In this document: positions 1,984-20,072 of the stretch, piece after piece | Layout of the letters: each line of letters starts with the position of its first letter | Numbering within the stretch: position 1 is the stretch's first letter | IMG/VR virus record: IMGVR_UViG_3300031673_000408 | Coordinates: 1 to 26,486 of that record | Direction: 5' to 3' (one strand) | Length of the DNA stretch: 26,486 nt | Origin: a virus | Translations under genes and position numbers: made by a program | The notes under the pieces: model-generated | The model's database searches: none | Seen by the model: only the letters and a program-made list of their open reading frames with translations | Told to the model about the DNA's origin: nothing

Positions 1984-2496
1984 TTACCTCGGGGGCTTGG
2001 TGGATTCGCCGGGCAGACTCGTCGAGAAGCGCTGCCGTTTGCGTTTGTTGGTTTCTTGTATCTCGATACGTCGACTCTGCGCCGTTAACGCTGCCATCGA
2101 CGCCGCGGAATCATCATCACCATCACCGTCAGTAGCTGTCCTGGCCCCCGTGGGCGGCAACGTTGATTCACCCAGCTCTTCATCAATGGACACGAGCTCG
2201 GGGCGACCCTGCGCTTCCGGCATCTCATCCCCATCATCTGCGACGAAGTCGGAGGTGGGCTCGGGGATCACCGACGGCACTGTCGTCTCAGCGAGGTGAC
2301 TGTTGCAGAGCGGGCACTGCTCCAAGAGCGGCGCGGCCTCACACATCACCTCAACGCTGTACTCCACCTCCGCGCCCTTGGTGTGCTTACGCTTCTTGAA
2401 CTGGATGGCATCGACGGGCTTCATGCCTTGCACCGCCAGGAGCTTGCGAATGTAGGCGATGAGATCGTGGTGCTCAAACGTGATGTTGATCTTCAT
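1984..2496 (-). CDS. Hypothetical protein with a CxxC knuckle and acidic tail
   Basis: 170 residues from the ATG at 2496. This start is chosen because its ATGA overlaps the TGA stop of the helicase gene and a GAGG lies about 8 bases upstream; a longer frame to 2550 would add 18 unlikely residues. The first 60 residues look folded, beginning MKINITFEHHDLIAYIRKLL, with a basic patch FKKRKHTKG (33-41). A single CPLC (61-64) could be half of a zinc site. The rest is low-complexity: an acidic segment (DGDGDDD) and then a basic end. It sits between the helicase and the Fe-S nuclease, so an accessory role in that unit is plausible but inferred. No family was recognised. Confidence 0.7.
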   Translation of the reverse strand: MKINITFEHHDLIAYIRKLLAVQGMKPVDAIQFKKRKHTKGAEVEYSVEVMCEAAPLLEQCPLCNSHLAETTVPSVIPEPTSDFVADDGDEMPEAQGRPELVSIDEELGESTLPPTGARTATDGDGDDDSAASMAALTAQSRRIEIQETNKRKRQRFSTSLPGESTKPPR

Positions 2497-5435
2497 GAAA
2501 TAATCCTCGCTTTGGTGATGGCCCGCGTGACTCGGCGCTCGTGAATACACTCATCATCGAAGAGCGTCACACCTTGTACCGCGCACTCCTCGTGCTTAGC
2601 ACATCGCGCGCAGGCCAGGGCACACGTAATTGTCTGTGCCACCGTTTGTTTGAGGGTGAGGGCTCGCGCGATGTTCTCGTCCACCGTCCCCCCGCCGAGG
2701 AGACGGTAGATAACGGTGTCGCGCTCTTGACCCACACGGTAGTTGCGGTCCTTGGACTGCTCGTAGTCGCCCAGCTTCCACGGGAGGGAGTAGTAGATCA
2801 TGTAGTTGGCGGCGTTCAGGGTGATACCCACGCCCGTCGAGACCTGCCCGAGGTAGACGCGGCACGTCGGTTCGGCGTTGAAACGGTCGGCCAGCGTCTG
2901 CACCTTCCCCGTCACGCTCCCGTCCACCCGCACGTAGCCGATCTTCGCCGCTTTTAGGGCGTCTTCGATCAACGCGAGTTCAGGGAGGTACTGTGCCCAG
3001 ATGATGCACTTGTTAGTGGGCTCAGAGAGAATCGCTTCGAGCTGCTCCAAGAGCACCTCTAGCTTGCCGTTAGGGGTGAAGCGTTCGACCGCCGGGGGAC
3101 GCGGCTTCTTATCGACGTGACACGCGCGAGTGTAGGGCTTGATGTCCTCCATGACACAGTCGCGCAGGTGCTCACAGGTGTCGCAGAGGTCAGCGGCCTC
3201 CGTCTTGTAAACGAACCCACAGCTTATCTGGATGAGTTTGTTGAGCAGCACGGCCGCGTTGGGCACATCCACCGTCCCCGCCTCGGTCAAGAGCGTGGTG
3301 ATCTGCTCGTAGAGATCGTGGTACTCCTCCGAGAGAATCAAGGTGTTGTAGAACTGACGCTGCTTCTTCGCGAGGGTGACCGGAACGTCGTGCACCAAAC
3401 GCTTGGGCAGGTCGAGACACTCTTCTTTGGTCCGCCGCAGCGCTATCAGGTTGACCCGGTCGTTGAGCACGTCGAGGTTCTTGTAACCCAGCAGGATGTG
3501 CTTGTTGTGCGGCGCGAATGCACAGAACGTTTTCTGGTAGGTCCAGAAACTTTCGGATGCGAACGCGGGGGCGAGGAAGCGCAGCTGCGAGTACATGTCC
3601 CGGGGATCTCCCAGCGACGGGGTCCCGGACATAATGATGCGCCGACCAGCGCGTTGACTCAAAGCCAGCGTCATCTCCGTACGCGCACTTTGATGGCCTT
3701 TGATGTAGTGACTCTCATCGGCCACGATGGCGTTGTAAGGGACCTCTTGAATGATGTCATCGATCCAATTCCGGGTCGTATCGTAGGAGATGACCGTCCC
3801 AGCGTAGTCCTTCGCCTCGCGAAGTTGCTTCAACTTATTCTTCTTCGTCAGCGCATCGACGATGCGATACTCCTGGTCGATACCATGGACCTGGAGCTCT
3901 TTTGCCCACACCGGCATGACGACTTTGGGGCACAAGATGAGCGGCCGACAGCCCAGGGCGCGCTGCCAGTCGATGACGATCTTCGTGTTGTGCGTCACCA
4001 CACAATCAGACGTCAGAAAACACTCGTCAGGGGAGTCAACCGAGATACAAACCGTTGATCCGACCCCAGCGTCCTCTATCGTACAAATGCGACGATTCAA
4101 CCCTCGGGTCGGCGCGCGGTACCGCGTAGCTTTACGTGGTAGCAGGAAAGGGTTATACCCCGGAGGAAGCGTAAATGTTACACGCCACGCCGTCTGGCCA
4201 CTACGACGCTCACCTCGGTAGGTGTAGCTCGTTTCTTTACTGCGCATCCTGGCGGTGCCGCCCAGAGATTCAACGATGAAGACCACAGCTTCAGACAGCT
4301 TTTTCGAAACGCTCACGAACTCCGGCACCTCCCCGCTGTACCCATCGGTATCCATTAGTCCCTGCAGCAGCGCGAGGCGATGTTCGAGAGCGTTGAACAG
4401 GTAGAGGTCGGGTACGTGCTTATCGGCAGCCCGTGCCCCCCACACCCCTAACTTCTGTAGAATCGGTACCAGAGGATTCGAGTTCCAACGGGTCGTTCGT
4501 GGCCCGTGCAGCGTACCCTTACCGCAGATATGCCACACAGGGCAGGGATTCCCCGCGTACACACTGCGGTGAATGCGCACATTAGACGGCAGACGCGCCT
4601 TAACTTTTCTGCCGATCCAGTCGTCTTTCGAGCTGAAAGACGGCACTTGCCCGCGCCCCAGATAGCCGTCCCCGAGGAGCACGCCTAGCACGTACGCGTC
4701 GAGAGGGACGGCGCGTTTTGAGAACTGCACAGGTGCAGTCATCGGAATACTGTACGTGTAACGCTGCCAGTTTTTATTGGGGCCATACGGTTTGCCGTAG
4801 GTCAGTGAACCCTCCGCCAGGTCTCGCGTCGCCAGTACTTGCGCGGGGCGCCCATGGCTCTTTACGACCCACAAATGTGCGTCATCGCATGTCACCGCCG
4901 TACGATCCGTAAAACATACGCGATTCAAATGCTGATCGCCTTGTGGGTAGACCCCCGTCACACGGTGTGGCTTGCCGTCACCGCCAAAGACACGGTCGCC
5001 GACGTGGAGGGATCCAACAGACCGCCAACCCCGCGGCGTTAACACCGGGGCCTCCAAAGGCAAGCCCTTTCCCAGACCGCACGAGTAGAAGAGCGCACAC
5101 CGGTGAAAGTACAGGGCGTGGACGAGGCCCTCAAGCTGGTGCGCGTAAGGCTGCGTCTTGAAGGTGAAGCCTGCGGGCAGCTCCTGGTTCTTGATACGCT
5201 GCGCAAAAGCGTCGAGCTGTGTGACTGCGGTCTGGGCCGAGGGGGACAACTGGAAAGGGATCTTGAGCGCCCGCAGGTCCTGCAACACGATGGTGTACAC
5301 GGGGTAGAACGCGGGGTACACCCACGCCCCCGCCCGGAGTAGCGTCGCCCCGTAGACTTTCGAGAGGATGACTTCGAAACCCCCGATCACAAAAACCGGA
5401 GTCCCATTTAAGGTGGTAACTTTGACTTCGTGCAT
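2493..5435 (-). CDS. SNF2-family helicase/ATPase precursor containing an intein
   Basis: 980-residue precursor, about 620 residues after intein removal. SF2/SNF2 motifs appear in order: motif I CGLGK|T (Gly120-Lys123, then Thr484 after the intein), DESH (573-576), SGTP (603-606), LRRTKEECL (666-674), helicase-C motifs starting IIWAQ (811), and QSKDRNYRVGQ (893-903), the motif VI form typical of SNF2 proteins. The enzyme would translocate on double-stranded DNA using ATP. Two extra cysteine groups stand out: Cys751, 754, 760 and 772 inside the second half, and Cys938, 942, 945, 951 and 963 at the C-terminus, suggesting zinc or Fe-S sites. It is the first gene of a minus-strand operon; GGGAGA lies just upstream of the ATG. 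ATP binding is impossible until splicing restores the Walker A lysine-threonine junction. Confidence 0.9.
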   Translation of the reverse strand: MHEVKVTTLNGTPVFVIGGFEVILSKVYGATLLRAGAWVYPAFYPVYTIVLQDLRALKIPFQLSPSAQTAVTQLDAFAQRIKNQELPAGFTFKTQPYAHQLEGLVHALYFHRCALFYSCGLGKGLPLEAPVLTPRGWRSVGSLHVGDRVFGGDGKPHRVTGVYPQGDQHLNRVCFTDRTAVTCDDAHLWVVKSHGRPAQVLATRDLAEGSLTYGKPYGPNKNWQRYTYSIPMTAPVQFSKRAVPLDAYVLGVLLGDGYLGRGQVPSFSSKDDWIGRKVKARLPSNVRIHRSVYAGNPCPVWHICGKGTLHGPRTTRWNSNPLVPILQKLGVWGARAADKHVPDLYLFNALEHRLALLQGLMDTDGYSGEVPEFVSVSKKLSEAVVFIVESLGGTARMRSKETSYTYRGERRSGQTAWRVTFTLPPGYNPFLLPRKATRYRAPTRGLNRRICTIEDAGVGSTVCISVDSPDECFLTSDCVVTHNTKIVIDWQRALGCRPLILCPKVVMPVWAKELQVHGIDQEYRIVDALTKKNKLKQLREAKDYAGTVISYDTTRNWIDDIIQEVPYNAIVADESHYIKGHQSARTEMTLALSQRAGRRIIMSGTPSLGDPRDMYSQLRFLAPAFASESFWTYQKTFCAFAPHNKHILLGYKNLDVLNDRVNLIALRRTKEECLDLPKRLVHDVPVTLAKKQRQFYNTLILSEEYHDLYEQITTLLTEAGTVDVPNAAVLLNKLIQISCGFVYKTEAADLCDTCEHLRDCVMEDIKPYTRACHVDKKPRPPAVERFTPNGKLEVLLEQLEAILSEPTNKCIIWAQYLPELALIEDALKAAKIGYVRVDGSVTGKVQTLADRFNAEPTCRVYLGQVSTGVGITLNAANYMIYYSLPWKLGDYEQSKDRNYRVGQERDTVIYRLLGGGTVDENIARALTLKQTVAQTITCALACARCAKHEECAVQGVTLFDDECIHERRVTRAITKARIIS
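3987..5066 (-). mobile_element. Intein in helicase Walker A, class 3 type, with LAGLIDADG endonuclease
   Basis: 360 residues (helicase residues 124-483), inserted exactly between Lys and Thr of GLGKT. Block A reads LPLEAPVLTPRGW, and the first residue is Gly rather than Cys or Ser. The C-terminal junction is VVTHN followed by Thr484. The WCT signature of class 3 inteins is present: Trp189 in block B (DDAHLW), Cys463 in block F (VCISVDSPD) and Thr481 in block G (THN). In that class, block-F Cys replaces the missing N-terminal nucleophile. A homing-endonuclease domain is present, with motifs VLGVLLGDGYL (Asp256) and LLQGLMDTDGY (Asp364), both catalytic Asp residues retained. Class 3 inteins are known in SNF2 proteins (Deinococcus) and in phage helicases, so the location fits. 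Boundaries come from restoring the GLGKT motif. Confidence 0.88.
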
Positions 5436-8583: not shown

Positions 8584-11500
8584 ATGCCCCTGACGCCCAT
8601 CCTGATCGACGCTGAAACTCGGCGTGACCAAATCCACCGCAAGGCTGTGGAAGGCGTCACCGACGTTTTCCCCCTGGCCGTCAAGGACCACACCATCGAA
8701 GTGGCCAACTTGCGTGTCGATCCTCGCGCCTACTCCTCACGGCAGCAGAAAGAAGCCATCCTGCACGGCCGCACCCTCCAAGAACCCCTCAAGGGTGATC
8801 TGGTGCTGAAGAACTCCGCCGGTAAAACGGTGCAGCAACGCAAAGACACGACCCTCGCGCAGCTCCCCTACTTCACCCAGCGGCACACCTTCATCGTCGA
8901 TGGCAATGAGTACAGCGTCGCCAACCAGCGTCGTGTTCGTCCCGGCGTCTACACCCGTATACGCGGTAATGAGGAGCTCGAAGCCGCGTTCAACCTCGGC
9001 AAGGGCGAGAACTTCCGCGTCAACATGGACCCGGCGAAGGGCCACATGTTCCTGCAGTATGGCTCGACCAACATCCCGATGTATCCCGTACTGAAACGCC
9101 TGGGGGTGAGTGACAAAGAACTCGACCGGGCCTGGGGGCACGGGGTGGTCGCGCAGAACCGCACCGCCTTCGCCAAGAAGGAAGAGCAGTCGCTTGATAA
9201 GCTCTACACCCGCCTCGTCCCGGAGTTTCGTCGCGAAGCGACGACCCTCGACGAGAAGGCTGACGCCATCAAGGCGAGCTACCGCGACACCATGATGGAT
9301 CCGTCCGTCACGGCACGGACCCTCGGGACTCCGTACGAGCACGTCACGCCAGACACGCTGGTCAAAGCCTCCCAGAAGTTGCTCGACGTCCACCGTCAAG
9401 GCATCGATACTGACGACCGTGATAGCCTAGCTTATCAATCTCTCCACAGCGTCGACGATTTCGTCAAAGAACGCCTGCAACTAGAAGGCCGCAACCTCGC
9501 CCGCAAGGTTCGCCTCAAGAGCGGGCAAACGCTCGACCTCGACAAGCTCGTGCCCGGCTCGCCCTTCACCAAAACGCTGCGCAACTTTGCGACCACGAGT
9601 TCGCTCGCGTCTATCCCCACGCAAATCAACCCCATCGAAATCCTCGACAGCGCCGTGCGCATCACCTCGCTCGGAGAGGGTGGCATCGGTTCGGAGCGCG
9701 CCGTGCCCCGCGAGGCGCGACGTTTGCACAACACCCACTTCGGCGTCATCGACCCCAGTCGTACGCCAGAGTCGTATCGCGCTGGCATTGACCTGCGCGC
9801 CTCGTTGTTCACCAAGCGCGACGCCGCCGGGCGTTTCCACACCGTGATGCGCAATGCCAAGACCGGCCGCCTGGTGGACGTCCCGGTGCATGACTTGGAG
9901 AAGGCCACCATCGCTTTCCCCGGTGAGAGCAAAAAGAGCCGCGGCATTTCTGCCATGCGGGAAGGGCAACTGGTCTCGGTTGGCTCTAAGCAAGTCGACT
10001 ATGAGTTGCCCCACCCCTCCTACATGTTCAGCCCCGCCACCAACACGGTGCCGATGCCCGAGAGCATGCAAGGAAACCGTCTCATCATGGGCTCGAAGAT
10101 GGCTACCCAGGCGTTGCCCCTGGTGGACCGTGAGGTGCCCCACATCCAGGTGGAGTCCTACAACCTCGGGCGCAGCTTCGAGCAGGAGCTGGGGCGCCTC
10201 GTCTCCCCGCACGCCCCGGTGGACGGCATCATCAGGAAGATCGACGAGGACTACATCTACCTGGAGCCCACCAGCACCAAGCGGGCCAGCGCCGACGACG
10301 AGCCTGAGCTCCTGCTTATGGCGCCAGTAGAGCACGTGCTCATGGAGAAGACGGCGGGGGCCGCACCGCTCATCAAGATCCACTACGACACGGACTTCCC
10401 GCTGGCGTCCAAGACCTACCTCAACAACGACATCACCGTGAAGGTCGGCGACAAGGTCAAGGCCCACCAACCCCTCGCCGAATCCAACTTCACGCGCAAC
10501 GGCACGCTCGCCCTCGGGAAGAACCTCAACGTCGGCATGCTGGCCTACTACGGCATGAACTCCAACGATGCGGTGGTGGTCTCAGAGAGCGGCTCGCAGA
10601 AGCTCACCAGCGAGCACATGTACAAAGAGGCGATGCCCCTCGACGATGACATCGTCCTCAACAAGAACAAGCATCGCGCCCTCTTCGGTAACCGCTGGAC
10701 CGCCGCTCAATACGACGACCTCGACGAACGGGGCATCGCTAAGCCGGGAGCCAAGGTGATGCCTGGAGACCCCTTAATTGTGGCTCTCCGGAAGACCGCG
10801 CCGAGTCCCGAACAGCAGATGCTAGGACGTCTCCACAAGACCTTGGCCACGCCGTTCCGCGAGCAGGTCACCACGTGGGAACACCGTAACGGCGGCACGG
10901 TTATCGACGTCGTGGTCACGCCTCAGCGCGTGTTGCTTACCGTCAAAACCAGGGAGGCGGCGGGTATCGGGGACAAACTATGCTTCTCCGAAGACACCGA
11001 AGTGCTCACTAAAGATGGCTGGAAAGACGTCGCTGACATCACCATCAACGACGTGCTGTACACCCTGCGCGACAACCACATTGAGCTGCACGAAGCCCAA
11101 GAGGTTCATCACTACCCCACCGCAGGGGAAGTCTACGAACTCAAGTCCCAACAAGTGGACCTGCGCGTCACCCCCAACCACCACCTCTACGTACAACTAC
11201 GCGGTGCGGATAAGCACACCCTTCTCGAAGCTCGGGAGGTCATCGGCAAACGCTGTCGTCACCAGAAAAACGGACACTGGCACGCGGAGACCCCCGCGGT
11301 GTTCTCACTGCCAACCCTCGACGCCGCGGACACGGGTAAGGGCTGTAAGCGGCAACAAGCAGCGGCAGATCGACACGTACCGATTCCCACAAAAGCATGG
11401 CTACGGTTCTTGGGCGCCTACATCGCCAACGGCAGTTACCTCATACATGACCGGAAGAGCCGTCCAGGTACCGTAGATTACCGCGTAAACCTCCACACCA

Positions 11501-14088
11501 TCCGCGGCATCACCCATTCCGTATCCGGAGACCAACACACCTGGATACAGGGCATCCTTGATGAGTGCGGCTTCGCTTACACTACCCGCGATGATCGCCT
11601 CGTCATCAACTCCAAACAACTCACACAGTACGTGGCTCAGTTCGGACACGCCAAAGATAAGCACGTTCCGACCGTGTGCTTTACGTGGGGCGCTGTCGCC
11701 GCGCAGTGGCTGTTGGAGGGTTTACTCGGGTGCGATGGATACCTCACCGCCAGCAACAGCCTTGGGTACACCACCGTTTCTCCGCAACTAGCCGATGACG
11801 TGCAGCGTCTCGCCCTCCATCGCGGATGGTCGGCCAACATCAAAACCTATCAACCATCGAACCCACGCTGGTCGCTGCGTTATACCGTACACATGGTGCA
11901 GTCCAAAAACACGCCCCAGGTGAACCACGGACACAGTGCCACACAAAAAGCCCAAAGCGAACGTATCATACGCTCCAACGAACCCGTCTACGGCATCACC
12001 GTTCCCAACAGCATCCTTTACGTGCGCGTCAACGGTAAGCCCGTCTGGACAGGCAACTCCGGGCGTTTCGGCAACAAGGGCGTCATCTCAAAAATCATCC
12101 CCGACCAGCAGATGATTCAAGATCAAAGCGGTAAGCCCCTCGACGTGCTGATGACTTCGGCCGGCGTGGTAAGCCGCGTCAACCCGGTCCAAATCATCGA
12201 GATGGCCGCCGGCAAAGTGGCTGCCAAAACCGGTAAACCCATCATCATCCCCTCGATGTCGGGACGCAACAACGTCAAGTGGGCGCGGGGCCTCCTCAAG
12301 GAGCATGGTCTCACTGACAAAGAAATCGTCTACAACCCCGTCACTGACAAAGTCATCACCGGCCCTGACGGTAAGGGTGTGATGGTCGGGCCGCAGTACA
12401 TCTACAAGCTATTCAAGAGCACAGAGACCAACTACTCCGCCCGTGGCGTCGAAGACTACGACGTCAACTTGCAACCCGCGAAGGGCGGCGCCACGGGCGC
12501 GAAAGCCCTCGGACGCATGGAAATCAACGCGCTGCTCGCGCACGATGCCCGCAACGTCCTCAAGGAAGCCGGCAGCATCAAGAGCTCCCGTAACGATGAG
12601 TGGTGGCGAGCCTATCAACTAGGATTGCCCCTTCCACCCATGCGGCAATCTTTCGTCGCCGACAAGTTCGCCAATATGCTCCAGGGTGCGGGCATCAAGA
12701 TGGACAAGAGCAATGAGCAGGTCCGCCTCGGGCCGCTCACCGACCAGGACATCACCAAGCTCTCCAGCGGTGCCATCCGCAAATCTACGATGGTGCGGGA
12801 GAAGGACCTGGCTCCGGAGAAGGGAGGCCTTTTCGACCCCATCATCACTGGCGGCACCAGTGGCACGCGCTGGAGTCACGTGGACCTAGCTGAACCCATC
12901 GTCAACCCCACCTTCGCCGATCCCGTGCGACGCCTGCTGAACTTGAACAACACGCAGATGCGTCAGGCCATACGCCAAGGCGGCAAAGGCATTCAAAAAG
13001 AACTCCGCGCCATCGACATGCCTCAGCGACGCCGCGAACTCGAAGCAGAAATCCGTGAAGCCAACGGCAGCCGCCTCGATGATGCCCTCAAACAACTCAA
13101 GACCATCAAAGCCTTGGAACGGGAAAACCTCACGCCTGACAAGGCGTACATGATGTCGAAGCTTCCCGTCGTGCCCCCTGTGGTGCGGCCTATTCTGCCC
13201 TCACGTGGACGCCGTGACCTGCTGGTCTCCGACGCCAACTACCTCTATCGCGATAACATCCTGGCCAATGACGCGTTGACCGACGCCAAGAAATCGCTCC
13301 CCGACAAGGAGGTAGGCGACGCCCGGATGCAGCTCTACGACGCGACCCGCGCGACGTTCGGCCTGGCCGACCCGGTGAGTCCCCAGCTCCAAGGACGTAA
13401 AGCCAAGGGCTTCATCACCACCATCGCTGGGCAGGGCTCCCCCAAGCACGGCTTCTTCCACGGAAAAGTGCTCTACCGTCCCCAGGACCTTTCCGGTCGC
13501 GGCACCGCCATCCCTGACCTCAACCTCAACATGGATGAGATCGGCCTCCCGGAGGAGATGCTGTGGACCACCTACGCCCCCCACATCATGCGCCGCTTAG
13601 TGCAGGGCGGCCACAAAGCTGTCGATGCAAAGAAGCTCATCGAGGACCGGCATCCCGCTGCGCAAGAGGCCCTGCGACGTGAAACCAAAGAGCGGCCCGT
13701 ATTTGTCAACCGTGCCCCCACGCTACATCGCTATAGCATCATCGGAGCGTATCCAGTGCCCGTTCCCGGCAAGACCATCCGCGTCAACCCCTTCATCGAA
13801 AAGGGCATGGGATTAGACTACGATGGGGACGCGTTGCAAATCCACTCCCCCGTCACGCCCAAGGCAGTCGAGGAAGTCAAGGCGATGACCCTCTCCAACC
13901 TCTTGTTCGGTGACAAGACCAAGTCCGACCTGCTAGTCTTCCCACAGCACGAGGCGATCATGGGCATCCACCATGCGAGTAAGGCGGGCAAGGGCAAAAC
14001 CAAGCACCGCTTCAAGAACCAAGCTGCAGCCCTGGAAGCGTACAAGCAAGGAAAGATCGGTCTGACTGATTTCGTACAGATTGGCTGA
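8584..14088 (+). CDS. RNA polymerase beta / beta-prime N-terminal fusion, intein-containing
   Basis: 1834-residue precursor, 1475 after splicing. The beta part shows the fork/rifampicin region (QINPIEILDSAVRITSLGEG, 347-366, then GIGSERAVPREARRLHNTHF), the catalytic block GDKL (796-799) | intein | SGRFGNKG (1159-1166), carrying equivalents of E. coli Lys1065 and Lys1073, and the C-terminal GRMEINALLAHDARNVLKE block. Beta-prime begins near EKGGLFDPIITGG, then SHVDLAEPIVNP, LPVVPPVVRP, LYRPQDLSGRGTAIP and NRAPTLHR. The metal-binding GLDYDGDALQIH has Asp1745, 1747 and 1749 in place of DFDGD. It ends at LEAYKQGKIGLTDF, near E. coli beta-prime residue 550. The N-terminal zinc ribbon of beta-prime is absent. 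The ATG at 8584 is chosen because AAGGAA precedes it; the open frame extends upstream to 8401 but overlaps the promoter and another gene. The remainder of beta-prime is at 18273. Confidence 0.95.
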   Translation: MPLTPILIDAETRRDQIHRKAVEGVTDVFPLAVKDHTIEVANLRVDPRAYSSRQQKEAILHGRTLQEPLKGDLVLKNSAGKTVQQRKDTTLAQLPYFTQRHTFIVDGNEYSVANQRRVRPGVYTRIRGNEELEAAFNLGKGENFRVNMDPAKGHMFLQYGSTNIPMYPVLKRLGVSDKELDRAWGHGVVAQNRTAFAKKEEQSLDKLYTRLVPEFRREATTLDEKADAIKASYRDTMMDPSVTARTLGTPYEHVTPDTLVKASQKLLDVHRQGIDTDDRDSLAYQSLHSVDDFVKERLQLEGRNLARKVRLKSGQTLDLDKLVPGSPFTKTLRNFATTSSLASIPTQINPIEILDSAVRITSLGEGGIGSERAVPREARRLHNTHFGVIDPSRTPESYRAGIDLRASLFTKRDAAGRFHTVMRNAKTGRLVDVPVHDLEKATIAFPGESKKSRGISAMREGQLVSVGSKQVDYELPHPSYMFSPATNTVPMPESMQGNRLIMGSKMATQALPLVDREVPHIQVESYNLGRSFEQELGRLVSPHAPVDGIIRKIDEDYIYLEPTSTKRASADDEPELLLMAPVEHVLMEKTAGAAPLIKIHYDTDFPLASKTYLNNDITVKVGDKVKAHQPLAESNFTRNGTLALGKNLNVGMLAYYGMNSNDAVVVSESGSQKLTSEHMYKEAMPLDDDIVLNKNKHRALFGNRWTAAQYDDLDERGIAKPGAKVMPGDPLIVALRKTAPSPEQQMLGRLHKTLATPFREQVTTWEHRNGGTVIDVVVTPQRVLLTVKTREAAGIGDKLCFSEDTEVLTKDGWKDVADITINDVLYTLRDNHIELHEAQEVHHYPTAGEVYELKSQQVDLRVTPNHHLYVQLRGADKHTLLEAREVIGKRCRHQKNGHWHAETPAVFSLPTLDAADTGKGCKRQQAAADRHVPIPTKAWLRFLGAYIANGSYLIHDRKSRPGTVDYRVNLHTIRGITHSVSGDQHTWIQGILDECGFAYTTRDDRLVINSKQLTQYVAQFGHAKDKHVPTVCFTWGAVAAQWLLEGLLGCDGYLTASNSLGYTTVSPQLADDVQRLALHRGWSANIKTYQPSNPRWSLRYTVHMVQSKNTPQVNHGHSATQKAQSERIIRSNEPVYGITVPNSILYVRVNGKPVWTGNSGRFGNKGVISKIIPDQQMIQDQSGKPLDVLMTSAGVVSRVNPVQIIEMAAGKVAAKTGKPIIIPSMSGRNNVKWARGLLKEHGLTDKEIVYNPVTDKVITGPDGKGVMVGPQYIYKLFKSTETNYSARGVEDYDVNLQPAKGGATGAKALGRMEINALLAHDARNVLKEAGSIKSSRNDEWWRAYQLGLPLPPMRQSFVADKFANMLQGAGIKMDKSNEQVRLGPLTDQDITKLSSGAIRKSTMVREKDLAPEKGGLFDPIITGGTSGTRWSHVDLAEPIVNPTFADPVRRLLNLNNTQMRQAIRQGGKGIQKELRAIDMPQRRRELEAEIREANGSRLDDALKQLKTIKALERENLTPDKAYMMSKLPVVPPVVRPILPSRGRRDLLVSDANYLYRDNILANDALTDAKKSLPDKEVGDARMQLYDATRATFGLADPVSPQLQGRKAKGFITTIAGQGSPKHGFFHGKVLYRPQDLSGRGTAIPDLNLNMDEIGLPEEMLWTTYAPHIMRRLVQGGHKAVDAKKLIEDRHPAAQEALRRETKERPVFVNRAPTLHRYSIIGAYPVPVPGKTIRVNPFIEKGMGLDYDGDALQIHSPVTPKAVEEVKAMTLSNLLFGDKTKSDLLVFPQHEAIMGIHHASKAGKGKTKHRFKNQAAALEAYKQGKIGLTDFVQIG
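10981..12057 (+). mobile_element. Intein in the RNA polymerase beta active-site motif (class 1, degenerate endonuclease)
   Basis: 359 residues (800-1158), inserted between GDKL and SGRFGNKG. Cys800 begins block A (CFSEDTEVLTKDGW). Block B is RVTPNHHLYV (Thr863, His866). The C-terminal junction is KPVWTGN followed by Ser1159, so the nucleophile, terminal Asn and +1 Ser of a class 1 intein are all there. The penultimate residue is Gly rather than the usual His. The LAGLIDADG endonuclease motifs are LGAYIANGSYL and LLEGLLGCDGYL; the first has Asn949 where a catalytic Asp is expected, the second keeps Asp1051. Homing may thus be impaired while splicing must persist, because the unspliced enzyme would have its two active-site lysines 359 residues too far apart. 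Confidence 0.93.
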
Positions 14089-14819: not shown

Positions 14820-16940
14820 ATGGCTTCACCCCCCAACAACTACGGTCGAGACCTCATCCTCGCCGCGCTGGATCGCTACAAAGAAGCAGCCACGCGCGCT
14901 GAGTCTGAAGCCTACCAACGTAAAATCGAACAGCGCTTCGGTCGTTTCCGCAAGGCCCTCAGCCGCTACGGCAAGAAAACCGGCACCGGGCACAAGCGCA
15001 TCCTGGTCCCCAAGAAACTCCTCAAGCGTCGCGACTTGAAGCGGTTGGGCTTTGTCCCCGTCACTGCCGCCATACCTGAAGCTGGCCAAATTCGCATGCG
15101 CAGCTTCCGCCATCCTGACCACAACTACCATCTCCACGAGCATCGACGTAACTGGACGATGCATCGTGACAGTAGTCCCGCATCGTCGATGCTGGCGCTA
15201 CGTGAAGCGCAGAAGCCAGACGGCAGTGGTCTAACCCCAGATGGACTGTCTCTGTGGAACCGCGTAAAGACGACCTTCACCGGCCTCCCCCACACCCTCA
15301 CCGAGGGCGTTCCGGGGATGGCTTACTACCTCAGTGGCCGCCTCATGGGGGCGCCGGGCATGAAGACCAAGCTCGAAAAGGCGCTCCCCTCCGCCTATTT
15401 CGACAAGATTGACGACTGGAAGGTCTACAAGGGCGTTGCCCCCAAGAAGACCGAAGAGCTGCTCACGCCGCCGCCCGCCCCCGTGCCCGACCTGCCGCCC
15501 CCTGCGACTATCGAAGCACCACCCCTGGCGAAAGCTGCCGCGGAGTTCGCCCCCGGCATCCCCCCGCAGCGGCCCATCTCACGGTTGCCGCGCATCACTG
15601 AAAAGACGATGAATCGGTGGATGCTAGCGGTGCAGGACCATGACGCTGCCAGGGCCGGAAAACACTTTGACCTGAGGTTGGTTGACCCCGACGCCGGCAA
15701 GGCACACTCCTGGGCGATACCAAAAGCCCGGCTCCCTGCGCCCGGCGAGAAGCTGCTGGCGGTGCAGACCTTCACGCATACGCCGGAGTACGCGCTGCAC
15801 TTCGGCGACAAGAAGCCTGGAATCATCGGCCAAGGCTACGGTAAAGGTCGTGTCCGCATGGCGCTCAAGGAGCCCACGGACATCATCGAAGCCAACAACG
15901 ACAAGGTGCGCTTCAACACCTACCGTGGTCGCGAGCTGAGCGAGTATCTGCTGCGCCGTACCAAAAACGACAAGTGGCTCCTACAAAACACGACCACCAC
16001 ACGTGAGAAACGTCCCGACCTCCCTGACAGCAAACCGAAGTACCGGGAGGTCACGCCCGACGCTGTTGATGTGGCTGACAATTCTCAACTCATGATGGCA
16101 AAGGTGGACGGTGCTCACAACACATTCGTCCTGGACCGAGACAACCCCGTACGTGTGTTCTCATATCGTCCAACTGAACGTGACACGGGCGTCATCGAAC
16201 ACACTCACCGATTCCTCCCAGGTCTACGGACACGAGTACCCAAGGAACTCGACGGCCTCATCCTGCGGGGAGAACTGGCTGCGAGTGATCCGCATACCGG
16301 GCGCATCCGTGACTCAGTCGATACGGGCGCCATCCTCAACTCCGGAGTCTGGAAGAGCCGCGAAGCGCAGCAGCACTCGCCGCTCCGTGCCGTCATCTTC
16401 GATGTGGCACGCCGCGCCGGTGAAAACGTCGAGAAGCTCCCTTATCGTGAGAAGCTCAAGATCCTTGAACGCGTCACCAAAAAGCTTCCGTTCCTCGAAA
16501 TGCCACCGCTGGCTCGCACTGCAAAGGAGAAAGTGAACCTCCTGAACCGTATCCGTACCGGGCAGGAGCCCATCACCTCTGAGGGCGTAGTGCTGTGGCC
16601 GATGGACGGCGGGGCTCCAATTCGGTCAAAGTTCCGTCCCGACCACGACGTCTACGTGCGCAAAATCTACCCCGAAGAGGGGAAGCGCGAGGGCCTCGCG
16701 GGCGGCTTCTCCTACTCCTGGACCCCTCAGGGTAAAATCCAGGGCAACGTCGGCACGGGCCTCAAGCACGAGCTCAAGCGTGACATGCTGGAGAATCCCC
16801 GCGAGTACCTCGGCCGCGTGGCGCGAGTCCAAGCTCAGGGGGTCTACCGGGACAAGAGCAATCCGAAGAAGCCAGGGGCGTTGCGCGCTCCCGCCTTCCG
16901 CGACTGGCATTTGGACAAAAATCTCGGGAAAGTGAGCTGA
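14820..16940 (+). CDS. LigD-like 3'-phosphoesterase plus ATP-dependent DNA ligase
   Basis: 706 residues. Residues 1-250 are unrecognised, ending in a Pro-rich linker. Residues about 265-350 form a LigD-type 3'-phosphoesterase domain, which trims 3'-phosphate or ribonucleotide ends. His274, His282, Asp284, Arg286, His320 and Tyr324 match the six catalytic and metal residues of Pseudomonas LigD (H42, H48, D50, R52, H84, Y88), with two extra residues between the first two. Residues about 420-620 are the adenylation domain: Lys428 in KVDG, GEL (484-486), EGVVL (588-592) and Lys604/Lys615. An OB-fold follows (GNVGTGLKHEL...LRAPAFRDWHLDK). This is an end-processing plus sealing enzyme without the LigD polymerase domain. 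Its stop overlaps the next start (TGATG). Start support is moderate (GGTGG upstream). Confidence 0.9.
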   Translation: MASPPNNYGRDLILAALDRYKEAATRAESEAYQRKIEQRFGRFRKALSRYGKKTGTGHKRILVPKKLLKRRDLKRLGFVPVTAAIPEAGQIRMRSFRHPDHNYHLHEHRRNWTMHRDSSPASSMLALREAQKPDGSGLTPDGLSLWNRVKTTFTGLPHTLTEGVPGMAYYLSGRLMGAPGMKTKLEKALPSAYFDKIDDWKVYKGVAPKKTEELLTPPPAPVPDLPPPATIEAPPLAKAAAEFAPGIPPQRPISRLPRITEKTMNRWMLAVQDHDAARAGKHFDLRLVDPDAGKAHSWAIPKARLPAPGEKLLAVQTFTHTPEYALHFGDKKPGIIGQGYGKGRVRMALKEPTDIIEANNDKVRFNTYRGRELSEYLLRRTKNDKWLLQNTTTTREKRPDLPDSKPKYREVTPDAVDVADNSQLMMAKVDGAHNTFVLDRDNPVRVFSYRPTERDTGVIEHTHRFLPGLRTRVPKELDGLILRGELAASDPHTGRIRDSVDTGAILNSGVWKSREAQQHSPLRAVIFDVARRAGENVEKLPYREKLKILERVTKKLPFLEMPPLARTAKEKVNLLNRIRTGQEPITSEGVVLWPMDGGAPIRSKFRPDHDVYVRKIYPEEGKREGLAGGFSYSWTPQGKIQGNVGTGLKHELKRDMLENPREYLGRVARVQAQGVYRDKSNPKKPGALRAPAFRDWHLDKNLGKVS

Positions 16941-17362
16941 TGCTCTTCAACAAGAACGCAGAGATCAGCGGCACCGTCATCGGCCCCTCCCAAACCCACG
17001 GCCTGGGCCTCTTCGCCACCCGTGAGTTCGTGCCGGGGGAGATCGTCGGGGCCGCCGTGGATTGCGTACCGTCCGGAGGAGACCTCCGTGAAGACCTCCT
17101 CCAAACCGGCGAGGGGCGCTACGTCAACCACTCAGACCACCCCAACACCGAAGTCGTCCCCATAAGCTCTGCTCAATACGGTCTCAAGGCCCTGCGCCTC
17201 ATCCAGACCGACGAAGAAGTCACGGTCAGCTACGAACAGGGTATGGAATGCTTCCCCGGTGCCAACATAGTCGTGCCGGATAGCCTTGAGGAAACCAAGC
17301 AGGCAGCCTATTATGCTGGAGTAGACGCCGCCCTTTACCGGGTAAACCTCCAAAGGAGATGA
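16940..17362 (+). CDS. SET-domain protein (putative lysine methyltransferase)
   Basis: 140 residues. SET motifs are evident: THGLGLFATREFVPGEIVG (19-37), the GxG-containing cofactor segment; GRYVNHSDHPNTEVVPI (59-75), the NHS..PN motif; and LIQTDEEVTVSYEQ (87-100), the E-E-x-T-x-x-Y motif with Tyr98. SET proteins use S-adenosylmethionine to methylate lysines on proteins. There are no pre-SET or post-SET cysteine clusters, so it is a minimal form. The C-terminus (QAAYYAGVDAALYRVNL, 121-137) carries the short helix signature seen at the N-termini of neighbouring proteins. The start overlaps the ligase stop. The target is unknown; the phage RNA polymerase, ligase or virion proteins are candidates by proximity only. 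Confidence 0.85.
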   Translation: MLFNKNAEISGTVIGPSQTHGLGLFATREFVPGEIVGAAVDCVPSGGDLREDLLQTGEGRYVNHSDHPNTEVVPISSAQYGLKALRLIQTDEEVTVSYEQGMECFPGANIVVPDSLEETKQAAYYAGVDAALYRVNLQRR

Positions 17363-18272: not shown

Positions 18273-20072
18273 GTGGCCACGACCACCACGCTGGGACGCC
18301 TCCTCCTCAACGACGCTCTCCCCTCAACGCACCAAATCAAACAAGAGGTCTCCAAGAAAGACCTCAACACCTTGATGTCTGACCTGGCACGTAAAGATCC
18401 CACCCGTTACGTGACCACCATCGCGGAGATGAAGCGCATCGGAGACGCTGTCGCTACCGATACCGGCATCACCGTCGGCTTGGACGACATCGAGCCGGAC
18501 TACGCCGTCCGCGACCGGGTGCTCGAACCGTATCTCGCCAAGGTGAAACAAACCGCGGACCCGCAGAAAAAGCGCGCTCTTATTGAAGAAGCTCAGCGCA
18601 AGATGATCGAGCTGACCAAAAAACACCCCGGTCAGATGACCACCATGGCGCTCAGCGGTGCCCGGGGCAGCGTGGCCCAGCTGATGCGCAGTGTTACTTC
18701 GCCCGTCGCGGCGGAGGATGACCGTAATCAAACCATCCCGTGGATCATCAGTAAGAGCTACGCCGAGGGTCTGAAAAGTCCCGACGCCTGGATCGCAATG
18801 GCAGAAGCCCGACGCAACGCGGTCGAGACCTACACCGCCGTCGCGGCTCCCGGCGAAGTCAGCAAGCTCCTCGTCGGTAACATGAGCGACCAACTCATTA
18901 CGATGCCGGACTGCGGCACGACTAACGGCGTACCCATGCGCGCCGACGACACGCAAGTCATCGACCGCTACCTCGCCCAAAGCGTCAAGGGCTTCCGCGC
19001 TAACACCCTCGTCACCTCGCAGGTAGCTTCGCAGCTCCAACAGAGCCAAGTCATCGTGCGCTCACCCATGACATGCGAAGCCCCAGACGGCATCTGTCAG
19101 CGTTGCTACGGCTTGTCCACCAAGGGCCAGTACCCGCAAATCGGCGCCAACGTCGGCATGCTCGCCGCCCATGCTATGGGTGAGCCGCTGACCCAGATGG
19201 CGCTGAATGCGAAGCACGCCACGCGCACCACGGACTCCAACAAGGCTATCCTCAGTGGGTTGGCGGGCTTCAAGCAGTTGACTGAGATTCCGCAGAGCTT
19301 CTTCAACAAAGCCACCTTGTCGAATCGTGAGGGCACCGTCGGCACCGTTAAGGCGGCCCCGCAAGGTGGCAACTACGTCTGGGTAGATGACAATGAACAC
19401 TATGTCCCACCAAATCTCGCCGTTCACGTTAAACCGGGACAACACGTGGACGCAGGCGACGCTCTTTCTGATGGCATTCCCAAACCCGATGAAGTCGTGC
19501 GTTTCAAAGGTCTCGGGGCAGGGCGCAAGTACCTCGTGGATGAGCTCCAAAACATCTACCAACGAAACGGTCTCGACATCGATAAGCGGCACCTGGAGCT
19601 CCTCGCCAAGACGGACCTCAACTACGTAAAAATGACCGACCAAGATAGCCCTGAGTTCGGCTTCATGCGGGGCGACATCGTCGACTACAATCGGTTCCGT
19701 CTCGCTGCGGCCAAGAATGCCCAGACCGTGGCCATCAAAGACAGCGTCGGGCATTCCTTAGGCGATACCACTCTGCACTACACCGCGGGCACCACTATAA
19801 CGCCAACCGTGGCGCAAGACCTGACCAATAGTGGCTTCACCAAAGTACCCGTCGTCATGAACATGCCCCGCCACGAGCCCATCATGAAACCGATCAGTCG
19901 CACGCCGTTGCTGCATCCCGACTGGTTGGCGAAGATGGGCCACCGTAACCTCAAGAACACCATCCTCGAAGGCGCAGCCTTCGGTGAACCTTCAAATATC
20001 CATGGCACCCATCCGATACCAGCCTTCGTGATGGGTGAAGAATTTGGCGCCGGCCCAAAAGGACGGTACTAA
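18273..20072 (+). CDS. RNA polymerase beta-prime, C-terminal part
   Basis: 599 residues with a GTG start supported by GAGG 7 bases upstream. It begins at the TTxGR block (TTTTLGRLLLNDALPS), near E. coli beta-prime residue 611, so it continues almost exactly where the fusion protein at 8584 stops. Conserved parts: SGARGSVAQL (128-137), the bridge helix (SYAEGLKSPDAWIAMAEARR, 162-181), Cys214, Cys268, Cys275 and Cys278 of the second zinc site, and the trigger-loop region VGMLAAHAMGEPLTQMALNA (294-313) with His315 matching E. coli His936. Leu311 replaces Met932. It ends with a LKNTILEG..GEPSNI segment. At 599 residues it is much shorter than the matching part of E. coli beta-prime, about 800 residues, so large insertions are absent. 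It would assemble with the spliced fusion protein into the catalytic core. Confidence 0.95.
   Translation: MATTTTLGRLLLNDALPSTHQIKQEVSKKDLNTLMSDLARKDPTRYVTTIAEMKRIGDAVATDTGITVGLDDIEPDYAVRDRVLEPYLAKVKQTADPQKKRALIEEAQRKMIELTKKHPGQMTTMALSGARGSVAQLMRSVTSPVAAEDDRNQTIPWIISKSYAEGLKSPDAWIAMAEARRNAVETYTAVAAPGEVSKLLVGNMSDQLITMPDCGTTNGVPMRADDTQVIDRYLAQSVKGFRANTLVTSQVASQLQQSQVIVRSPMTCEAPDGICQRCYGLSTKGQYPQIGANVGMLAAHAMGEPLTQMALNAKHATRTTDSNKAILSGLAGFKQLTEIPQSFFNKATLSNREGTVGTVKAAPQGGNYVWVDDNEHYVPPNLAVHVKPGQHVDAGDALSDGIPKPDEVVRFKGLGAGRKYLVDELQNIYQRNGLDIDKRHLELLAKTDLNYVKMTDQDSPEFGFMRGDIVDYNRFRLAAAKNAQTVAIKDSVGHSLGDTTLHYTAGTTITPTVAQDLTNSGFTKVPVVMNMPRHEPIMKPISRTPLLHPDWLAKMGHRNLKNTILEGAAFGEPSNIHGTHPIPAFVMGEEFGAGPKGRY

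Follow-up and report, generated by a model that had tools for sequence, protein, structure and literature searches.

The two genes described here likely encode the core of a cellular-type, two-barrel phage RNA polymerase, composed of a fused beta–beta' chain of 1475 aa and a docked 599-aa chain, that is probably independent of alpha and packaged in the virion. Both genes lie in a 26,486-bp IMG/VR contig (hereafter ‘the window’, meaning the whole stretch of DNA that was analysed), where the reading frame at 8584–14088 (+) is stop-free over 1834 aa. The sequence AAAGGA, which resembles a ribosome-binding site, stands immediately 5' of the ATG at 8584, and this ATG lines up with the start positions of relatives in the alignment. 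The features are as follows.

8584..14088 (+): precursor, beta + intein + N-terminal half of beta'; 1834 aa, 1475 aa once spliced (predicted)
8584..10980 (+): beta, N-extein part (aa 1–799), the last residues being the catalytic GDK-L (profiles and alignment)
10981..12057 (+): intein, 359 aa, with a LAGLIDADG_3 endonuclease, Cys1 to TGN and then Ser+1 (Pfam, alignment with relatives)
12058..12717 (+): beta, C-extein part, from the GRFGNKG lysine motif to the beta C-terminal helix (QSFVADKFANMLQGAGIKMDKSNE)
12718..14085 (+): N-terminal half of beta', joined directly to beta, clamp helices present
13813..13830 (+): active-site motif LDYDGD, three Mg-binding aspartates, each >95% conserved across the clade
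18273..20072 (+): C-terminal half of beta', 599 aa, GTG start, with bridge helix, trigger-loop region, second zinc ribbon and the remaining beta' (Pfam Rpb1_5, NCBIfam, model)
18645..18671 (+): bridge-helix motif MALSGARGS
18909..19112 (+): second zinc ribbon, cysteines in DCGT and TCEAPDGICQRCYG, all four >95% conserved

The first-pass annotation had described a phage RNA polymerase in which beta is fused to the N-terminal half of beta', with beta' split in the same enzyme and a single frame running from beta motifs into beta' motifs, and both Pfam and NCBIfam agree with this description. All of the motifs that it named occur in order along the frame (GDK at aa 796–798, SGRFGNKG at 1159, GRMEINALL at 1310, SGRGTAIP at 1637, NRAPTLHR at 1709 and LDYDGD at 1744). 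Pfam places Rpb2_3, Rpb2_6, LAGLIDADG_3, Rpb1_1 and Rpb1_2 in this one frame and Rpb1_5 in the 599-aa ORF, while the top NCBIfam match of the longer ORF is PRK09603, a model of fused beta/beta' (E 4e-79), among RpoB/RpoC matches that are strong throughout (E 1e-56 to 1e-79). The two ORFs cover complementary stretches of the rpoC model TIGR02386, with positions 153–533 in the fusion and 549–1070 in the 599-aa ORF. Across the two ORFs the domains follow the order of RpoB and RpoC, with a bridge helix, a trigger-loop region and the second zinc ribbon all present, as well as the beta' DxDGD aspartates and beta GDK/GNKG lysines that mark a cellular-type two-barrel RNA polymerase. The active-site Asp and Lys, the residues of the bridge helix and all four cysteines of this zinc ribbon are conserved in more than 95% of the clade.

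Relatives of this enzyme occur in many phages. By tblastn, the same gene pair is found in Salmonella phage Arash (OQ632216; Gp206, 1525 aa, and Gp216, 606 aa) and in Vibrio phages D69, D181 and D148, where the proteins show the same beta–beta'N fusion and separate beta'C at ~30–35% identity to those of the window, but have no intein at the GDK site and are annotated only as ‘subunit beta’ or hypothetical. Queries made from alignments were needed to go further, as the 599-aa subunit alone found one relative only. From each IMG/VR scan the best 80 loci were kept; the last scan gave at least 559 matching stretches, a count that may include bacterial-like contigs since the pattern also fits bacterial sequences. 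Dereplication at 95% left 167 phage representatives with three layouts. More than half (85/167) carry beta, beta'N and beta'C in a single chain, with a median ORF of 2087 aa and a complete C part in 83 of them, and in one such example of 2090 aa the Rpb2 and Rpb1 Pfam domains follow end to end. Another 63 are two-piece like the window, with beta–beta'N and a separate beta'C encoded 459–5873 nt apart, and six more are probably two-piece, the beta'C being absent from the stretch fetched. The remaining 13 are three-piece, consisting of beta with the first ~140 residues of beta', the rest of beta'N, and beta'C. The combination of fusion and split in one enzyme stands as first described, but is far from unique to the window, being part of a large clade in which many members have beta and the complete beta' as a single polypeptide. 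Among 84,980 prokaryote genomes scanned, a single contig matched, binned as Thermotogota, which provides no evidence for a cellular home of the clade.

Several of these loci have features of their own. An apparent split of beta in D181 was rejected as a gene split, as a group I intron (Rfam RF00028; L005:5512-5792) interrupts the beta part there; a second group I intron lies upstream at 1715-1922. One single-chain relative (L256:4830-10901) yields an open frame of 2024 codons only when TGA is translated as an amino acid, since it contains 11 in-frame TGA, but no TAA or TAG before the TAA that follows it; this points to a phage with reassigned TGA. Large insertions occur in beta of L081 and L030, with weak matches to 2H phosphoesterase in both and to SET in L081, where the SET-like domain lies within the beta part of the polymerase itself. 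Between the two polymerase genes of the window lie a stand-alone SET-domain protein (16940–17362, +; Pfam E 7e-10), rare in relatives (2/32), and a fusion of an ATP-dependent DNA ligase with a LigD-type 3'-phosphoesterase domain (14820–16940, +), whose layout is the same in relative L006.

The closest published group to the fused clade is that of the mReC RNA polymerases (Weinheimer and Aylward 2020), phage enzymes that can be aligned with RpoB and RpoC and form a deep branch beside bacteria (PMC7481178). That the fused clade is, or overlaps with, this group is a serious possibility, though we would put it at somewhat below an even chance. The mReC sequences were mined from IMG/VR and selected for the motif NADxDGD (PMC7481178), criteria that can be passed by a single fused protein, and NADxDGD is found in 76/85 single-chain and 22/63 two-piece representatives; the GLDYDGD of the window, however, fails this filter. 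The major capsid proteins reported for mReC all belong to Gp23/PF07068 (PMC7481178), whereas this family occurs in 0/27 clade genomes, yet in three of three separate-gene phages (Carin-5, YerA41 and TM30); on the window itself no capsid gene was recognized. Further, the mReC polymerases were published as beta and beta' subunits, with fusion mentioned only for crAssphage (PMC7481178). In the open-access literature searched, a fusion-plus-split polymerase is not described.

It had been stated at first that the multisubunit polymerases of phages are split rather than fused, which holds for the phiKZ/AR9 enzymes (PMC7598289) but not for crAss-like phages, where fused ones are known (PMC7481178, PMC10770324). 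The vRNAP and nvRNAP of phiKZ/AR9 jumbo phages have no alpha or omega, neither of which was found in the large relatives of the window searched for them, and their beta' is split after the active-site barrel, as in the window. In these enzymes, for which the position of the beta' split has been described, beta too is divided and is in no case joined to beta' (PMC7598289); the window, in contrast, lacks the division of beta into two or more unfused chains that characterizes this type, and its sequence similarity to it is weak (PHROG E 1e-9 to 1e-19). The two-barrel RNA polymerases crAss-like gp66, YonO and P23-45 resemble the window in having both catalytic barrels in one chain, and some of these are virion enzymes. 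The single-chain enzymes of crAss-like phages and P23-45 are too divergent for RpoB/RpoC profiles (PMC7481178, PMC10770324), whereas the window departs from the profile-negative crAss/YonO type by matching such profiles strongly, and its clade keeps the full RpoB-/RpoC-like domain order. Among bacteria, Helicobacter and Wolinella carry beta–beta' fusions with the two subunits ordered as in the window. Wolbachia also has a natural beta–beta' fusion, and such bacterial fusions are cellular enzymes with a complete beta' that use alpha and omega. The window differs from them in that ~18 N-terminal residues and the first zinc domain of beta' are gone and beta' is split. This split has a parallel in cyanobacterial/plastid RpoC1/RpoC2, where beta' is likewise broken after the active-site barrel, but it lies slightly upstream in the phage, the last residue of the fusion corresponding to gamma residue 558 of 617.

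For the junction itself, Salmonella RpoB and RpoC placed end to end served as the reference for alignment. The C-terminus of beta, ...QSFVADKFANMLQGAGIKMDKSNE, aligns with that of RpoB, and the residues that follow match RpoC from about residue 19, in a seamless join without a linker. Of the features of bacterial beta', the window protein has lost the first zinc-binding domain, reading GLFD where Salmonella RpoC reads GLFC; Asp stands in place of this first zinc Cys in >95% of the clade. Six-frame ORFs searched with profiles for beta, beta'N and beta'C place the junction inside one ORF in 232/232 phage loci spanning it (locus L086, the sole other junction case, is cut off by the end of its contig), and cultured Arash, D69 and D181 share it. 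An open junction common to so many loci leaves no sign of a stop codon lost at this point, and shows the fusion to be neither chance nor sequencing error but a genuine character that a large group of phages has inherited. Separate genes for beta and beta' in close relatives would have undermined the original description; none of the relatives examined has them. A beta-only query of IMG/VR returned fused forms only in the best 80 of at least 559 matches, and a query built from the separate-gene phages TM30/Carin-5 returned only fused-clade or jumbo-phage-like matches.

As the window is a 26-kb fragment, partner subunits were counted in its large relatives, which may themselves be incomplete. 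Profile searches with positive controls in bacteria found alpha in 0/34 and omega in 0/22 of these. Sigma70 region 2 scores over the cut-off in 17/34 and sigma region 4 is found in 9/22; promoter recognition may therefore differ within the clade, as half of the larger relatives are without a region 2 over the cut-off. Mass spectrometry of Arash particles detected Gp206 more than any other protein (3516 spectra), together with Gp216 (1210) and the sigma factor Gp10 (467); its authors suggested a role in early transcription, but allowed that abundant enzymes may be carry-over from infection (PMC10585845). By analogy with these data, we infer that the window phage has a virion-packaged, alpha-independent RNA polymerase.

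Presence in virions also bears on whether the fusion is a polyprotein, translated as a single chain from which a phage protease would release beta and beta'N of the ordinary kind, such that the fusion would be irrelevant to the mature enzyme. Many virion proteins of tailed phages, among them many head proteins, are processed, the Arash enzyme is found in virions, and tryptic coverage alone does not prove an intact chain. We nevertheless consider such cleavage unlikely, as the junction is seamless without a spare linker and is never broken in the 232 loci, with gene splits, where present, falling elsewhere.

The split in beta' falls at a well-defined position, after the active-site barrel as in phiKZ/AR9-type enzymes. 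The last residues of the fusion chain, ...DFVQIG, lie near residue 551 of E. coli beta', and the split site corresponds to a linker of 4–5 residues in single-chain relatives (e.g. VMI-GGKK-MTLG; xGxK|TTLG), at which the window fusion ends with VQIG and a stop while the second gene opens with TTTTLGR. AlphaFold2 models of the two chains, folded separately from clade alignments without GenBank phage rows, have a pLDDT of 89.6 for beta'C and 86.9 for the post-intein beta-C/beta'N. In VIA-align comparisons the beta'C model matches S. aureus beta' 660–1184 (Z 34.7, 3.5 A over 467 residues) and cyanobacterial RpoC2 (Z 34.5). The beta-C/beta'N model matches bacterial beta' at Z ~23, mainly through its beta' part (residues 217–676), the beta part resting on sequence; its last residue falls on residue 551 of E. 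coli beta', or on residue 558 of the 617 in cyanobacterial gamma. The split might be genetic only, the two halves being rejoined into one chain, for instance by trans-splicing, given that relatives with a single chain exist and that inteins and group I introns are common in the clade. We regard this as very improbable: a normal stop codon follows ...VQIG, other genes lie between the two ORFs, neither end carries split-intein sequence, and Arash Gp206 and Gp216 were reported as two proteins.

The beta part of the fusion is interrupted between GDKL and SGRFGNKG by an intein, which the first-pass annotation had only hinted at with the word ‘spliced’ and which is now located, at 359 aa, in 10981–12057. 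The site is empty in relative L006, as it is in Arash, but is occupied by inteins in relatives L105 and L096, which end SGN|S and CGN|C. The penultimate residue of the window intein is Gly where His is usual; since L105 and L096 have this Gly in their inteins too, it is a family trait. Excision would leave the 1475-aa extein product. Inteins recur at catalytic sites across the polymerase clade, just after DxDGD (seven cases), at GDK (three) and also in the trigger-loop and zinc-ribbon regions, in loci that include L088, L113, L137, L084, L164, L203 and L221. In the window, a second LAGLIDADG intein lies within the Walker A motif of an SNF2-type helicase ORF (2493–5435, –; GLGK|GLPLEAPVL...THN|TKIV) and appears to begin with Gly rather than Cys. 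That the polymerase gene, metagenomic in origin and intein-interrupted, is a sequencing or assembly artefact with a stop lost at the junction, or a decaying pseudogene, is scarcely credible given the identical junction in 232 loci and cultured phages, the intact catalytic residues and the detection of the Arash counterpart in virions.

The history of these layouts was examined in trees rooted on bacterial RpoB+RpoC (FastTree on 173 taxa, IQ-TREE on 41). IQ-TREE recovers the fused clade as monophyletic (100), separated from bacteria by a long branch (1.35), with single-chain members (73) and split members (80) as sister groups and the three-piece form nested within the split group (84). A basal position of the single-chain forms, seen with FastTree in the first set, gave way to two weakly supported sister groups with wider sampling. 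As beta' is unbroken in bacteria, the shortest history is one fusion, one split and then a second split; outgroup parsimony thus suggests one fusion followed by one or two splits, on a weakly supported root. On balance we favour a single ancestral fusion of complete bacterial-type beta and beta', which would have given rise to an alpha-free, single-chain core in hundreds of tailed phages, later cut at the beta'N/beta'C linker in one branch and again in a sub-branch, the beta/beta' boundary never being a gene boundary anywhere in the clade.

These observations lead us to propose how the enzyme may work. Once the intein is out, beta and the N-terminal half of beta' would form the 1475-aa chain containing the two catalytic barrels, with their GDK/GNKG lysines and DYDGD aspartates. 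The 599-aa chain would add the bridge helix and trigger loop as well as the second zinc ribbon, completing the active site by docking non-covalently where single-chain relatives have a four-residue linker. Cellular RNA polymerases bring beta and beta' together with small subunits such as alpha. Joining the C-terminus of beta to beta' would instead make pairing of the barrels intramolecular, so that alpha would no longer be needed as an assembly platform. By analogy with cultured Arash, the polymerase would be packaged in the virion, injected and start early transcription, which may often be steered by a phage-encoded sigma70-like factor.

The fused clade would then represent a natural minimal form of the cellular enzyme, many members being one chain of ~2,090 residues that is still clearly RpoB/RpoC-like, and intermediate between the shredded polymerases of jumbo phages and the very divergent single-chain ones. 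Its three layouts would show, as a natural series, where the largest subunits tolerate a break, and alpha-independent assembly is testable with cultured phages (Arash, Vibrio D69/D181). As such, these phages may serve as a natural experiment on the minimal size of a cell-type RNA polymerase.
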